A stretch of DNA of 14,251 bases, taken from Candidatus Thorarchaeota archaeon (lineage in GTDB: Archaea > Asgardarchaeota > Thorarchaeia > Thorarchaeales > Thorarchaeaceae). Below the pieces are notes generated by a model. That model worked only from the letters and a program-made list of their open reading frames with translations, had not been told where the DNA came from and searched no databases. The stretch is taken from positions 1 through 14,251 of the forward strand of contig JAEOUL010000235.1 in NCBI GenBank assembly GCA_016839345.1, in the 5' to 3' direction. Shown here in pieces: positions 7,631 to 13,497 of this stretch. The translations under genes and the position numbers were made by a program. Numbering within the stretch: the stretch's first letter is position 1; every line of letters starts with the position of its first letter.

Positions 7631-10600
7631 CTACACTATACGACTCTGGATAAGCTGAGGTCCAAGAACATCGTGATACAGTTTGAGATAAGCCTCATCT
7701 TCTGAAACCACCGTCAGTAAATCTTTTGAATCATTACTTCCACCAACAAGGATTTCTCGGTCATCAACAACACCAAGAAGCATTGGTGTCTTCGTGTACC
7801 AGATTCGCCAACCAGTTAGAGCTTCAAATTCAGCTCCGGGTTCATCAGGTTCTGGAATAATGAGGACCCTTCGCTTTGCATTTCTCACTTTGGCAAGTTG
7901 TGTCAAATCCAGACAATCTAAATCCGGAACGGAGATTATAATTGATTCTTTTGCTCTCCTCGCCATAGCGCTGATGTGCGCACAAGACTCCTCAAATCCA
8001 CTAAGATACCAGGTTCTGTCTGTTGGAACGTCTAGCAAAATATCAGTTGCTTTATGGATTGCATCAAGAATATCAACAGCCTTTGTTGTGAGTTTAGTTA
8101 CACCTAAAATAGTATCATCAACAGTTTTGCCTAGAGAAGTAATTTTCTTTTTCTGTTCATTTGCGTTTCTTCTGAATACCTTGTCAATGTTGTCGTTGAA
8201 TTCAGTCAAAGCATCATTTCGACTCTGATGCAAGACCGACATTGCTTCAGCAGCTTGATTATTCGCGTCTGTTACTGATTCGGTCAGTAAAAGGTTCTTT
8301 TTCGTCAATTCAGACCTTGCTTTCTCTATCAAATACGAGGATTCGGTGCTCAGTTGTGTCTTGAGATCAAGGCCAATTGTTTCTAATTTCCGTGCAGCGA
8401 ATTGATTTGTGAAGGTTGAACTCTGACGAATAGATTCGATTGCTTCATTCCTTTTTTCAGTAGTCTGGATAGAGGACTGCTCCAATAGATTTCTGAACTC
8501 CTCTGAAGCAGATTCAGAAGACCTCTGGAACTCGGTAAATGATGTCGTAAGTTTATCTACAACGACACTGTAACTTTGGTTTGTTTCCTCGGCTATTGTC
8601 GCATCCAACTCTTCTATACGCTCAGTAATTTTACTTGGTATCTGGGTAAATGCATCATTTCCTTTAGCGAGAGCAGTAGCACAATCTGTACCGAATTCAT
8701 CAAGACGCTCTGCAACTACTGATTCAGAATTCTTTATGAGTTCCGTCGTAATCTCGGTAAAACGATTAATCGCCTCATCTCCACGCTCTGAAATTGAACT
8801 AGCGGCCTCGTTTGCAGATTTTATCAAATCATTTTGTAACAGAGTCAATTCATTTCCAAGCTTGGTTCCAAAGGTATCAAGTGATGTAGCAACATTTGAA
8901 ACCGTTGAATCAACCCAGACTGATGCAGCATCAAATGCTTGTGCAACTTCGGTTCGTCTTTCTTCGATTGCTTTAATGATTTCATCTTTAGCGCTATTCC
9001 TGTTCTTTACACCACCAATTTCGCGTTCAGAGAGAAGTGCATGAAAATCTTCAATACTTGCCGTCGATGCCTTGACTCGTTTGGTTGCTAGACGATTGAT
9101 TTTCTTGCTTGTATCAGCCAGAACTCTCTGCTTGTAATCTTTCTGTTCAGAAATGAAAGAATCAGCTACACTCTTCGCAGCAGCACTGCTTTTCTCAAGT
9201 GATGCAGTTGTAGCCACACGAACATTTTCTAACCGTTCGGCAATGTTATCCCGTGCACCAGCGACAGATTGATTGAATTCTTGGGACACCTGATCCATTG
9301 TATCTGTGAACTGTTTGATGGTACCAGACTCCATATCTCGCAAACTGGTTTCAGTACTCTGTATTGACACTTCAAGTTGACCCAATGCAGTCGCAAGGCT
9401 CTCAGAAATTTCGTGTCGTTTTTGAACAGCGACTTCTTCAAGATTCTTCTTTACACCAGCGACAGACGCAGCAACTTCATCAATTTTCATTCCGAGCTCT
9501 GCAGAGTATTCTTGCTGGAGTTTTTGTGAATCCTCTTTAAGACTAGTCATCTCATTTTTCAATGAAGTTTTGAATTCACTGTGTGCTGATGCAATAAGGT
9601 CTCGAGCTTCTACTGTCTGACTCGAAAGAAGTCCATTAAATGTTGCTTCAAGACCTTGTGTCAATGTGATAAATTGTCTTGTTATTTCTTCCAAATGAGT
9701 GTGGAATTCTTCTCGGATAGCCATAGTATGTTGTTCAATTCGAGCATCCTGCTGATCTATTGTTGAGTCGATTTCAGTTTGAATTCGATTTGCATGAGAA
9801 TTTATCGCGTTAATACTCCTCGTCATCCGCTTGTCTAAACGATCCCTAAGCCGTTCATAGAGCTTCTTTGAATCACGAACCTGTTTTTCAGTAGTAGTCG
9901 TGAAACTACCGATGAGTTCCTCAAGTCTTGCTCCAACACCTGCTTCAAAGTTGTGTGTCGTTGTTTTGACAGAAGTAATTAATGCCTCATTCTTGGTTGT
10001 TGTTGATTTGATAATAGAATTGAATGCAGATTTTATACGACTGTTCATCGTTTCTGCTATACTGTTTAATTCTGAGGTTTCAGTGTTTAAGATATTGCTT
10101 ACATCGATCGAAGTATCACTGAGTTTTTTCTCAATCGATTGGACAGTTGACGCCACCCATCCATCAAGTTCAGTATGTAGTGCTTTGGCAGCGGCATCAC
10201 AACTTTCCTGTTCCATCAGATTTTGGTTCTCCAAGAGTTCGAGGACTAAAACTCGGGTATCAGCAAGAGTTGTTTCACAGTCATTGCCGAGGGTTGTACC
10301 TAGGTTCTGTAGTTCATCATACTCTTCCCTTACCAGATTATTCAATTTCTCAACGTGTGAGGTCAGTGTGTTCTTCATAACTTCAATATAGTTTGCATCT
10401 GTTGAAGCAACTTGGTCGAGCTGTGAAGTCACGGACTGGGATGCTACATCCATGAAGCTAGCCACTTCTTCTTTCCAAGTTTCAACTGCACCAATTACAG
10501 ATTCAGCAATATCAGCGCTGGCATTAATTTGATTTTTTACAAAATTTCCAAAATCTGCGGGAATCGTTCTTGCTTCACCAAGAACTTCTCTTAGGGATTC

Positions 10601-11524
10601 CTGACCTGCTAGGTAGGTCTGACCGAGCTGGCTTTCAACTTGAGTAAGTAGCTGAGTAAGATCTCCAGAAACTGTGTTCAATACTTTGACTCCCTCATCG
10701 GATGCAGAAGAGACCATCGAGCTAAGTATTTTCGTTGTTTTCTGAGAGATATTTTGAAGCACTTCTGATGATGCAGTTAATGTCTTCGTGACAGCATTCC
10801 GAGCCGCTTTAATGAGACTTGCAGATTTAGATTCGAACTCGGTGATTGTTGCCAACGTACCTTTACGCTGGACCTTTAACCATTTATCGAATTCACGCGA
10901 TATTTGTTTGACATCCCGATCTAAGGAAAGTTGACTTTTATCAATCTCTTTCTGTAGTTCAATAATCTTGGAGCCTAATCGGTTATCTAGTGTGTTATCT
11001 AGGTTGTTCATTATACCCTCAAGATCGTCATACAGAGATTCCATCACTGCGCTTGCTGTGGTCTTGACAAGTTCAATTCGAGCACTCACCAACTTAGACA
11101 TATTATCCTCATAGGTAGTCAATGAATCACTGACAGTTTCTATTGACGTATTCTTTGAGTCAATAACCTTCTCAATCGAGTTATCAATCGCCTCAGCATT
11201 AGAGCTAAAAGTCTTCTCAGATATGGTGATAAGATCAGAAACTTCATTGTTGATAACTGAAAGTTCATTCAGGAGTGATAGATTAGGAGGCATTGCACGA
11301 TATATGGGTACAATTCCTCCAACCTCTTTGATCAATCCTTTCTTCACAAGTCGCCCAAGGGTCTTTCTGACTGTGGGTACTGTTTCTCCAATCATTTGGG
11401 AAACTCCACCCGCAGTCATATTTCCTCCGATTAATATTGGGAGAATAGCTTTGGACTCGGCATTTGTGATGCCTAAATTTTTTTTCAATACAGAGATTAC
11501 TTCCGTAACTGCTTCATTACTCAT
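7631..11524 (-). CDS. Giant coiled-coil protein with TrmB-like winged helix and degenerate PLD-like C-terminal domain
   Basis: This is a 1297-residue protein. Residues ~15-80 form a TrmB-type winged helix: an A-E-S-K-A-I-L-P-I-L helix, then GGVSQMIGETVPTVRKTLGRL with the recognition helix at ~48-60, and a wing GLIKEVGGIVPIYRA. Residues ~90-1160 are almost wholly helical and rich in Ser, Thr, Glu, Lys and Ala. They contain only two prolines (in RTIPAD and TQIPSK), as expected of a very long coiled coil. Residues ~1168-1297 are a globular alpha/beta domain ending with GVVDDREILVGGSND, which resembles the second half of a phospholipase D motif (HxKxxxxDxxxxxxGSxN) without the His, as in TrmB effector domains. 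No membrane segment is visible. TrmB proteins are normally 250-350 residues, so the coil is a huge insertion. I infer a DNA-tethered filament or scaffold. The start is ATG 11524, with GGTGGGAT six bases upstream. Confidence 0.88.
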   Translation of the reverse strand: MSNEAVTEVISVLKKNLGITNAESKAILPILIGGNMTAGGVSQMIGETVPTVRKTLGRLVKKGLIKEVGGIVPIYRAMPPNLSLLNELSVINNEVSDLITISEKTFSSNAEAIDNSIEKVIDSKNTSIETVSDSLTTYEDNMSKLVSARIELVKTTASAVMESLYDDLEGIMNNLDNTLDNRLGSKIIELQKEIDKSQLSLDRDVKQISREFDKWLKVQRKGTLATITEFESKSASLIKAARNAVTKTLTASSEVLQNISQKTTKILSSMVSSASDEGVKVLNTVSGDLTQLLTQVESQLGQTYLAGQESLREVLGEARTIPADFGNFVKNQINASADIAESVIGAVETWKEEVASFMDVASQSVTSQLDQVASTDANYIEVMKNTLTSHVEKLNNLVREEYDELQNLGTTLGNDCETTLADTRVLVLELLENQNLMEQESCDAAAKALHTELDGWVASTVQSIEKKLSDTSIDVSNILNTETSELNSIAETMNSRIKSAFNSIIKSTTTKNEALITSVKTTTHNFEAGVGARLEELIGSFTTTTEKQVRDSKKLYERLRDRLDKRMTRSINAINSHANRIQTEIDSTIDQQDARIEQHTMAIREEFHTHLEEITRQFITLTQGLEATFNGLLSSQTVEARDLIASAHSEFKTSLKNEMTSLKEDSQKLQQEYSAELGMKIDEVAASVAGVKKNLEEVAVQKRHEISESLATALGQLEVSIQSTETSLRDMESGTIKQFTDTMDQVSQEFNQSVAGARDNIAERLENVRVATTASLEKSSAAAKSVADSFISEQKDYKQRVLADTSKKINRLATKRVKASTASIEDFHALLSEREIGGVKNRNSAKDEIIKAIEERRTEVAQAFDAASVWVDSTVSNVATSLDTFGTKLGNELTLLQNDLIKSANEAASSISERGDEAINRFTEITTELIKNSESVVAERLDEFGTDCATALAKGNDAFTQIPSKITERIEELDATIAEETNQSYSVVVDKLTTSFTEFQRSSESASEEFRNLLEQSSIQTTEKRNEAIESIRQSSTFTNQFAARKLETIGLDLKTQLSTESSYLIEKARSELTKKNLLLTESVTDANNQAAEAMSVLHQSRNDALTEFNDNIDKVFRRNANEQKKKITSLGKTVDDTILGVTKLTTKAVDILDAIHKATDILLDVPTDRTWYLSGFEESCAHISAMARRAKESIIISVPDLDCLDLTQLAKVRNAKRRVLIIPEPDEPGAEFEALTGWRIWYTKTPMLLGVVDDREILVGGSNDSKDLLTVVSEDEAYLKLYHDVLGPQLIQSRIV

Positions 11525-11589: not shown

Positions 11590-12384
11590 TTACAATTTTG
11601 ACACTTGATCGAATAGATCTTTCAATTGACCAGTTTCGATCATTGAAGATTCACCGCTTACAATAACTTCTGCACGTATCTTGGTGGAGTCTTCAACTTC
11701 ATCAGTGTAGATTGTGTCAAAGGCTCTAGCTGACTCACTCTTCAGAATGTTTTTGACATCCACGGGGTCTTTGCCATCTATATCAAATGTGAGAAGCCAC
11801 CAATTCAAGGTCAAATCGGTAACATTTGTTTTCAGATTATAGTAGTCTGAGAATAGTTCACAGTAGAGTTTGAATGCAATAAAGTCATTAATTCGATCAT
11901 GAAATGGATTTAGAGTGACAATCCCCCTTGTGAAATCAAATCGAAACAAGAGTCCATCTCCTGCAATCAACATTACATCTTTTTCATTCACTGATGAGAA
12001 TCTCTTCCAGATTTTCTTGAATTTGGTCGAGAAGTGACGAATAGAACTCACGTTTAAAGTGGAGAGTAAATCCTTAATTGGAATTCGTCGATCCTGCATT
12101 CCACGACCTTTCTTTTCTAGTATGAAACGTCGTATTTGTTCCATATACTGACTAAAACAGAAGCTGGGCAGATCTCGGGGTTCTACTCCGATTTCTATAA
12201 GCGCATTCAAGAAGTTCCTATTCATACATCTTGGTCGAACAGTACAACTTAGCCTGTCCTCTTGGCAAGCGGTACACTTTTCCTCATGTAATTCAATTAA
12301 TTCTTTAGCCAACTGGTTATCTGCGGCTATATCAAGCAGGCTCATTCTTGTCGCTAATTCGTTTTTGTGCTTCTTCAGTTCCAT
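11590..12384 (-). CDS. Unknown protein with four-cysteine cluster
   Basis: I do not recognise this protein of 264 residues (from ATG 12384; a GTG at 12393 would add three). Residues ~1-55 are helical and end in a cysteine cluster C37-x-x-C40-x6-C47-x5-C53 with neighbouring Arg and Lys, which could bind zinc or, less likely, an iron-sulfur cluster. Residues ~60-130 are basic and helical (FILEKKGRGMQDRRI, FSTKFKKIWKRF), and residues ~135-260 look like a mixed alpha/beta domain with WWLLTFDID near residue 190. No membrane segment is seen. It lies between two coiled-coil genes in the same orientation, 65 bases before the giant gene and 165 bases after the 315-residue coiled-coil gene, so a shared task is plausible. 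Its upstream region shares an 11-bp motif with the latter. The function is unknown. Confidence 0.75.
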   Translation of the reverse strand: MELKKHKNELATRMSLLDIAADNQLAKELIELHEEKCTACQEDRLSCTVRPRCMNRNFLNALIEIGVEPRDLPSFCFSQYMEQIRRFILEKKGRGMQDRRIPIKDLLSTLNVSSIRHFSTKFKKIWKRFSSVNEKDVMLIAGDGLLFRFDFTRGIVTLNPFHDRINDFIAFKLYCELFSDYYNLKTNVTDLTLNWWLLTFDIDGKDPVDVKNILKSESARAFDTIYTDEVEDSTKIRAEVIVSGESSMIETGQLKDLFDQVSKL

Positions 12385-12453
12385 GGAGGTCACAATCCAC
12401 TAAGGTATTGATCTTGAGAGTTGGACATATCTGGCTCTAGTTTCTCTATCGAT

Positions 12454-12529: not shown

Positions 12530-12556
12530 GAGTTGATTTCCTGCCACTATCAACTC
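12530..12556 (-). repeat. Hairpin spanning the stop codon of the 315-residue gene
   Basis: GAGTTGAT (12530-12537) and ATCAACTC (12549-12556) are perfect 8-bp inverted arms around an 11-base loop. The TGA stop (12552-12550) lies in one arm. No T tract follows, so it is not a bacterial-type terminator. It could mark an mRNA 3' end or a processing site, or influence termination of translation. Confidence 0.4.
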
Positions 12557-13497
12557 TTTGCCGTTTCTTTTAGCTTACTTGTCCATGCTTTGATTTCTCG
12601 ACTTAAACTAGCAATGTCATTCTCATTCAATGTAGCTGTAGGAGGATAGGATTTGAGCTCACGAGCTCGTTTTCCAAATTGGAATAGAACAGGTGTGTGA
12701 CCCTCAATCTGTGTTGTTAATTGATCACGGACATCCTCTAAGGCTTCAGCCATGTCAGCAGCTTCTGTCTGTGGAATTACGAGATCTAATAGACCATTCA
12801 TCAAACTATCAATTGTGGAGGGAAGACTGACTTCTGATGGCTCTTGGATCTTTGGTGTCTTTGCATCTTTAGGCTTCTTGGGTATCTTTTCGGGTCTAAC
12901 GTCTGAAATCGGACCTTCCTCTATGAACTTTGAAAGGGTTTCAACAGCTTCTGTGACCTTATCTATCCCTATGTTATACTTTCGTTCAATGTCATCAAGT
13001 TGGCGAACAATGATTCCAACAATCTCATTCGTTTCTCCGAATTGTGATGACATGTCCTGAATTTTTTCTTCAATACCAGAGAGTCCAGCAACATAACCCT
13101 CTAGGTCATCAAGTTTCTTGACTAATATATCCAAATCTGCTATGGATACTAGAATATCATCAACTTTCTTTATGATGACCTCAGATTCTTTTGAATCCTT
13201 GACAGCTTTTACATCAGATTCGATAGTTGAAACTGATTTTGCCATATCATCCATTTTTTTAGTTGAATCCATGCCCTTTAGTGATTTAGTGAGGTCGTCT
13301 ACTTTTTTCGAAAGAACTTTGTCAATGTTGACATTAACTTCCTTCAGTTCTGAGCTTAAAGTTTCAATATTCTTATTCATCTCATCAATTGCATTGATTG
13401 CCTTTAGCTCCTCGCGTATCCCCTCAAGCCCTTCTGCTAGCTCGTCAACTTTTTTTTGAATATCATCAATTGCTGCGTTACTTTTCTCCGTTGCCAT
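12550..13497 (-). CDS. Coiled-coil protein with repeated KK-hydrophobic-D-D motifs
   Basis: This is a 315-residue protein of unknown function. Residues 1-195 are a heptad-like coiled coil in which a motif (K/R)(K/Q)-hydrophobic-D(D/E)-hydrophobic recurs at residues 15, 64, 80, 110, 127 and 165. Residues ~200-222 are a Lys/Pro-rich flexible linker (RPEKIPKKPKDAKTPK), and residues ~223-315 form a second helical domain with IPQTEAADMAEALEDV and a final amphipathic helix. No cysteine, membrane segment or signal peptide is seen. The start is ATG 13497 with AGGGGAT only three bases upstream. A strong TATA box lies about 70 bases upstream. It is the first of three same-strand genes ending with the giant coiled-coil protein, so it may be a structural partner. 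A run of eight A in the Q-K-K codons near the start (13450-13457 region) is a possible slippage site. Confidence 0.8.
   Translation of the reverse strand: MATEKSNAAIDDIQKKVDELAEGLEGIREELKAINAIDEMNKNIETLSSELKEVNVNIDKVLSKKVDDLTKSLKGMDSTKKMDDMAKSVSTIESDVKAVKDSKESEVIIKKVDDILVSIADLDILVKKLDDLEGYVAGLSGIEEKIQDMSSQFGETNEIVGIIVRQLDDIERKYNIGIDKVTEAVETLSKFIEEGPISDVRPEKIPKKPKDAKTPKIQEPSEVSLPSTIDSLMNGLLDLVIPQTEAADMAEALEDVRDQLTTQIEGHTPVLFQFGKRARELKSYPPTATLNENDIASLSREIKAWTSKLKETAKS

Follow-up and report, generated by a model that had tools for sequence, protein, structure and literature searches.

The closest described systems to the gene considered here are the archaeal sugar regulators TrmB and TrmBL1 (PF01978 plus PF11495), in which a winged helix is followed by a coiled-coil helix and a PLD-like C-terminal domain (C-domain). 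According to the TrmB review, TrmB dimerises by a domain swap in which the coiled-coil helices act as the hinge loop, and these helices pair Phe81 with Ile91' and Phe84 with Leu88'. This constant residue sum is read as antiparallel, and pairing of the same kind is proposed below for a far longer coil. The Thermococcales chromatin protein TrmBL2 likewise comprises a winged helix, a helix and a C-domain without the sugar subdomain; it has a short helix and no long arm, and is described in PMC4877046 as covering DNA as stiff filaments, as a coating tetramer reported without cross-bridging. SMC, Rad50 and the archaea-specific SMC-related proteins ClsN and Sph offer a further comparison, as their N- and C-terminal parts are joined by a long antiparallel coil of conserved length (PMC9389158 and PMC5082667). 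Here we analyse a stretch of 14,251 nucleotides from Candidatus Thorarchaeota archaeon (contig JAEOUL010000235.1; hereafter the window), which encodes a 1,297-residue protein with TrmB-type domains at both ends of a coil of ~1,060 residues. The two halves of this coil very probably lie antiparallel, as read from its sequence relatives, and the protein is probably a TrmB-family member whose dimerisation helix has lengthened into a hendecad helix of ~1,060 residues and turns back on itself as a hairpin. The protein and its parts map to the window as follows.

7631..11524, (-) strand: long-coil TrmB protein of 1,297 residues; intact open reading frame with an ATG start
11282..11488, (-) strand: TrmB winged helix, residues 13-81 (PF01978, 33.6 bits)
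8078..11257, (-) strand: hendecad coil spanning residues 90-1149, interpreted as a pair of antiparallel arms (3.66 Fourier peak, no insertions or deletions (indels), charge register i+j=1238)
10559..10561, (-) strand: Pro322, with a hendecad phase shift and an AlphaFold2 helix break at 325-326
9515..9727, (-) strand: best-conserved coil segment, roughly residues 600-670, surrounding the proposed apex or axis at residue 619
7634..8077, (-) strand: C-terminal PLD-like domain of TrmB/TrmBL2 type, residues 1150-1297 (fold match to 5bpd, 2f5t and 3qph)

The N-terminal TrmB-type DNA-binding domain named in the original prediction was recovered with Pfam, PF01978 scoring 33.6 bits (cut-off 25.6; E 3.5e-8; residues 13-81) in the whole protein and 39 bits when the N-terminus was scanned alone. 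The same profile was listed for all 27 family N-domains scanned (E <= 1), and we infer that the winged-helix head binds DNA. The predicted globular C-terminal domain appears PLD-like and, by fold, of the TrmB/TrmBL2 kind: its model resembles the C-domains of TrmBL2 and TrmB in Foldseek (5bpd, 2f5t, 3qph), with TrmBL2 as the top match. PF11495 (Regulator_TrmB) was listed for 10 of 28 family sequences, the window's own not among them. As both end domains appear to be of TrmB kind, the C-terminal domain seems to be no unrelated addition.

The coil of ~1,060 residues distinguishes the protein from TrmB and TrmBL1, where the helix is short, and the chain runs to 1,297 residues, compared with 335-342 for TrmB in the PDB. 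The match to 2f5t and 3qph spans about 110 residues of the first subdomain, and the protein stops about 150 residues past the coil; judged by these extents, the second, sugar-binding C-terminal subdomain of TrmB and TrmBL1 is absent. Unlike SMC and Rad50, the protein carries TrmB domains at its head and matched no ABC ATPase, SMC_N (PF02463), i.e. the Walker A/B ABC head, not being among its Pfam matches (E <= 1); its coil follows a hendecad repeat and shows no evident hinge or zinc-hook domain. A weak NCBIfam match to the ZorA tail of Zorya defence (NF033914, 20.5 bits against a cut-off of 190) was confined to the coil. The view that the architecture is undescribed agrees with the literature searched, in which no paper describes a TrmB-long-coil-PLD arrangement, most subscription papers being outside its coverage.

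The stretch between the domain envelopes, measured in same-length relatives, is about 1,060 residues long and, over residues 90-1149, contains only two prolines (P322 and P963), as had been noted for more than 1,000 residues. Its net charge in the 1,297-residue query is -50. Column-averaged hydrophobicity over residues 101-1150 yielded one sharp Fourier period of 3.66 residues (11/3), with a power of 74.9 in the query alone compared with a maximum of 14.2 in 500 shuffles. Core positions of the hendecad are a, e and h, and Ala is the most frequent residue at d. From ~342 to 1166 the phase departs from its mean by no more than about 35 degrees; it shifts once, by roughly 80 degrees, near Pro322, between the 55-residue segment ending at residue 341 and the next. 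In a low-confidence AlphaFold2 model of residues 1-1200 (pLDDT 58.8), the helix begins at 80 and continues, apart from short breaks, to 1164. The predicted long coil is supported by the sharp period, in line with this low-confidence model, and forms a near-continuous repeat that is hendecad and not heptad. A break at 626-636 in the model, also of low confidence, lies near the proposed apex; the centre is the best-conserved coil region in the window's family, with Gly624, Asn630 and Gly631 close by and no proline.

Length fixity of the coil is likewise supported by the homologues. A total of 96 were found, and 18 shorter than 1,270 residues were left out. Among the remaining 78 full-length sequences, 77 share the layout, so that the protein is no fusion created by assembly, and show no indel between residues ~20 and 1229 at identities down to 33%. 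The sole length variant, P0092, carries a tandem duplication of 232 residues (21x11+1) covering query residues 503-735 and centred on 619; it was excluded from conservation and register statistics. Across 190 pairs from the same 20 genomes, 55 indel events were counted for the long-coil protein (mean identity 40%), all outside the coil, compared with 19 for SMC (68%); over 105 pairs, a second SMC-like protein had 101 events and the long-coil protein 26. Length fixity as a unique trait was rejected, as SMC in the same genomes is also nearly free of indels, at higher identity; the constraint is SMC-like rather than unique.

Because the P0092 duplication is centred on 619 and the coil midpoint is 620, all i+j registers were scanned for antiparallel charge complementarity in 115 non-redundant sequences of the window's family. 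The highest of 1,514 registers was i+j=1238 (z 4.1), which is the full-overlap antiparallel register with its axis at residue 619. Analysed on their own, clade A (77 sequences) and clade B (37) each placed it first as well, and its score exceeded that of all 20,000 permutations made within hendecad classes. Within the arm, 1238 ranked first in the middle and inner thirds and not in the outer third. Mutual information likewise placed 1238 as the top antidiagonal, with a z of 3.4 among about 1,600 registers that is not significant alone and that the undetrended version did not reproduce.

The register was then assessed across other Asgard families, using 114 distinct proteins with both domains drawn from Asgard-phylum genomes, Thorarchaeota contigs and protein hits. 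Coils containing X were left out, and removal of 22 duplicate coils had reduced the set from 136 to 114. Register sums excluded clusters with coils under 480 residues, which lack a strong hendecad, and members off the modal coil length. The three-part architecture recurs in 38 families with coils of at least 480 residues; these coils measure 500-1,839 residues, and all have periods of 3.645-3.715. Families were joined only where coil lengths differ by at most 3 residues, so equal lengths within a family arise partly by construction.

Over the 38 families, the Stouffer sum was 5.5, 5.0 and 4.4 at offsets +1, 0 and -1 from full overlap, compared with a maximum of 2.9 beyond 8 residues. The 24 families outside the earlier set reached 7.2 at +1 (maximum 3.4 beyond 8 residues); they include L176 and L177, which have kin in the alignment of a second Thorarchaeotal paralog (paralog 2), L164 and L172, which are kin of earlier families, and ten mutually related Loki-type families. 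Dropping the first four left 20 families with a sum of 7.7, and additionally keeping just one of the ten Loki-type families left 11, with 4.6 at offset 0 and a maximum of 2.2 beyond 8 residues. In 13 of 38 families (0.59 expected) the best register of all fell no more than 8 residues from the midpoint, whereas each of twelve control positions drew it in at most one family. Restricting every supercluster to a single family (25 in all) left offsets -1 and 0 ahead, with the best register within 8 residues in seven. The families are not fully independent, given the shared ancestry of their end domains. These results suggest that antiparallel pairing over a whole coil may be legible from sequence alone. 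The longest relative seen (L086, G181:C178) has 2,084 residues and a coil of 1,839, and the best of its 3,259 charge registers is the exact midpoint.

Several observations weigh against an antiparallel hairpin centred on the midpoint. The register signal in the window's family comes from residues ~271-590, with none from the outer arm (93-290), and 1238 ranks second for charge in the query sequence alone. Ridge inverse covariance did not single out 1238 (z 1.7-1.8), and hydrophobic matching along antidiagonals gave no clear register. The charge scan did not recover the known hairpin of SMC (top register 904; one local window equivocal), and the low-confidence AlphaFold2 coil model shows no established hairpin. 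Elsewhere, the best register lies away from the midpoint in 25 of the 38 families; in the 751-residue Loki family, which is too uniform for coevolution (effective number of sequences 12.5), the expected register was fifth by mutual information and the nearby 687 fourth by charge. In paralog 2, two coil deletions have their centres about 8 and 21 residues away from the axis, and the paralog-2, c1523 and c1156 families have no conserved coil centre. To these is added the hendecad phase, unbroken through the centre in the window's family, which is equally compatible with a dimer as discussed below.

The proposed fold would have residues 90 to about 615 running outward, a turn near residue 619 and the residues up to 1149 returning, so that the arm would be an antiparallel two-stranded coiled coil with the winged helix and the C-terminal PLD-like domain meeting at its base. 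At a rise of 0.148 nm per residue, such arms would measure about 78 nm in the window's protein and 37-136 nm across the families. A domain-swapped antiparallel homodimer, with two continuous ~1,060-residue helices head to tail in a ~157-nm rod, has the same contact map, so the register evidence fits both equally; it would place a winged helix and a PLD-like domain at each end, as a dumbbell bridging two DNA segments. The swap described for TrmB itself through its coiled-coil helix (TrmB review), the unbroken central phase and the lack of a proline near the axis in the 1,297-residue protein (only 322 and 963) speak for this dimer. What tells against it is the composition of the midpoints across families: when the geometric midpoint is picked without charge data, 10 of 38 families have Pro no more than 8 residues from it (2.6 expected), and 28 have Pro or Gly there (17.4 expected). 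Overt segments containing Pro or Gly/Pro are found at the midpoint in L104, L162, L172 and L102, being Pro-rich in the first three, and nine mutually related families have a common basic KRG/SRG/KKG motif near the coil centre. This enrichment and these motifs favour the hairpin, and the swapped dimer appears less likely. The coil of roughly 150 nm in the original prediction was taken simply to extend, which does not agree with halves that read as antiparallel: a hairpin would reach about 78 nm, and a length near that estimate, about 157 nm, is regained only with the swapped dimer.

A dimer with parallel, in-register helices, making a ~150-nm filament or spacer tethered to DNA, would account for the long helix and for its fixed length, which is also a trait of length-conserved molecular spacers (PMC5082667). 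Neither a midpoint-centred antiparallel charge register in many families nor Pro and Gly at midpoints is expected of it, and a scan over long lags gave nothing above z 3.4, which renders this arrangement very improbable. Still more improbable is that the 11-residue repeat denotes an apolipoprotein-like, lipid-binding amphipathic helix instead of a coiled coil. PF01442 does match at E 4e-24, and there are weak matches to apolipoprotein A-IV chains; the PF01442 score of 85.8 bits is nevertheless under the curated cut-off of 90, only a narrow face is hydrophobic (a, e and h, Ala being the most frequent residue at d), the coil has its net charge of -50, and the antiparallel charge register would be left unexplained.

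As to function, the DNA coating by TrmBL2 and its place as best C-domain match make a chromosomal role for the long-coil protein plausible, not demonstrated, and a part in chromosome architecture or tethering is put forward tentatively. The head would bind DNA, with two molecules probably pairing as they do in TrmB, and the arm would keep the conserved tip about 80 nm off, where it might meet a second molecule or a partner; candidates for the latter are the products of two neighbouring genes described below, HTH267 and a 315-residue coiled-coil protein. Distant DNA sites would thereby be bridged or tethered passively, without a motor. The shape we propose resembles the arm of SMC or Rad50, except that a TrmB head replaces the ABC ATPase. 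Alternatively, the protein might be a conventional TrmB transcription regulator that responds to a ligand and uses its long arm only for positioning or oligomerisation, without any part in chromosome architecture. In favour of this, the domains at both ends appear to be of TrmB regulator kind and a helix-turn-helix (HTH) gene lies upstream; arms that measure 500 to 1,839 residues across 38 Asgard families are, we argue, hard to explain for simple repression, and this alternative seems rather unlikely. Among known organisms, Asgard archaea stand closest to eukaryotes, and their chromosome organisation is poorly known. It is conceivable, although doubtful as a whole, that the long-coil proteins constitute a phylum-wide, undescribed set of ATP-independent, SMC-shaped proteins with TrmB heads, lineage-fixed hairpin hendecad arms of about 37 to 136 nm and a Cys/HTH partner in one branch, serving to organise or tether chromosomes. 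A DNA-binding domain at the base of such an arm would be a new structural means, independent of any ATPase, of bringing distant DNA sites into contact.

Of 227 Asgard-phylum genomes, 220 contain a match to the family C-domain profile (E <= 1e-8), some of these matches being perhaps ordinary short regulators, and at least 114 of the 227 have the C-domain in an open frame of at least 700 residues, the winged helix not having been checked in each. Organism-named homologues of the 1,297-residue protein are from Thorarchaeota or Promethearchaeota, and the 25 contigs of named genomes with this type comprise 24 titled Thorarchaeota and one titled Lokiarchaeota. The latter (L020, JALVPN010000031.1) has the Thorarchaeotal 1,297-residue type together with the Thorarchaeotal gene order, and its label may be wrong. 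The 751-residue type is common in Lokiarchaeota-labelled genomes and includes Lokiarch_28300 (P0210); 83 of 120 listed proteins (P0107-P0226) have this length. At their coil midpoint, Lokiarchaeotal relatives of 751 residues carry a KKGF..GKKKKYK-like motif of basic and hydrophobic residues. Among the matches listed (120 of 316 in one search), all organism-named protein-search matches are Asgard, the others being unnamed or from metagenomes; one scan of viral contigs returned no family relative.

Two neighbouring genes of the window recur beside the long-coil gene.

11590..12393, (-) strand: HTH267, directly upstream; invariant Cys40/43/50/56 and a weak AraC-type HTH below the Pfam cut-off
12550..13497, (-) strand: 315-residue coiled-coil protein (coil315), found at this position in Thorarchaeotal loci; possible third operon member

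The invariant cysteines of HTH267 form a C-x2-C-x6-C-x5-C motif that precedes the HTH and is likely, by its sequence pattern, to be a metal or Fe-S site. The protein had no PDB relative by sequence and no NCBIfam family, and its profile matches 141 of 227 genomes (E <= 1e-6), often over part of its length. Thorarchaeotal loci have the order D-aminoacyl-tRNA deacylase, coil315, HTH267 and long-coil gene on one strand, with which the window agrees. HTH267 adjoins the long-coil gene in 19 of 25 loci of Thorarchaeotal type; five others end on that side, and L025 lacks this order. Over a set of 26 loci examined, HTH267 was directly upstream of the long-coil gene in ten and not in 16, seven of the ten being outside the Thorarchaeotal type (L188, L074, L205, L195, L192, L204 and L203), and no other neighbour family recurs as closely in as many of the 26. 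Conservation of the upstream gene is supported, and HTH267 is likely to be a partner of the long-coil protein in the branch that has it. Paralog 2 (coil of 843-846 residues; L038, L200 and L202) has upstream genes named by eye as a ~108-residue winged-helix-like and an amino-acid-kinase-like gene. Its variants L177/P0105 and L176 (P0106) have coils of 732 and 824 residues, respectively, with deletions near the coil centre.

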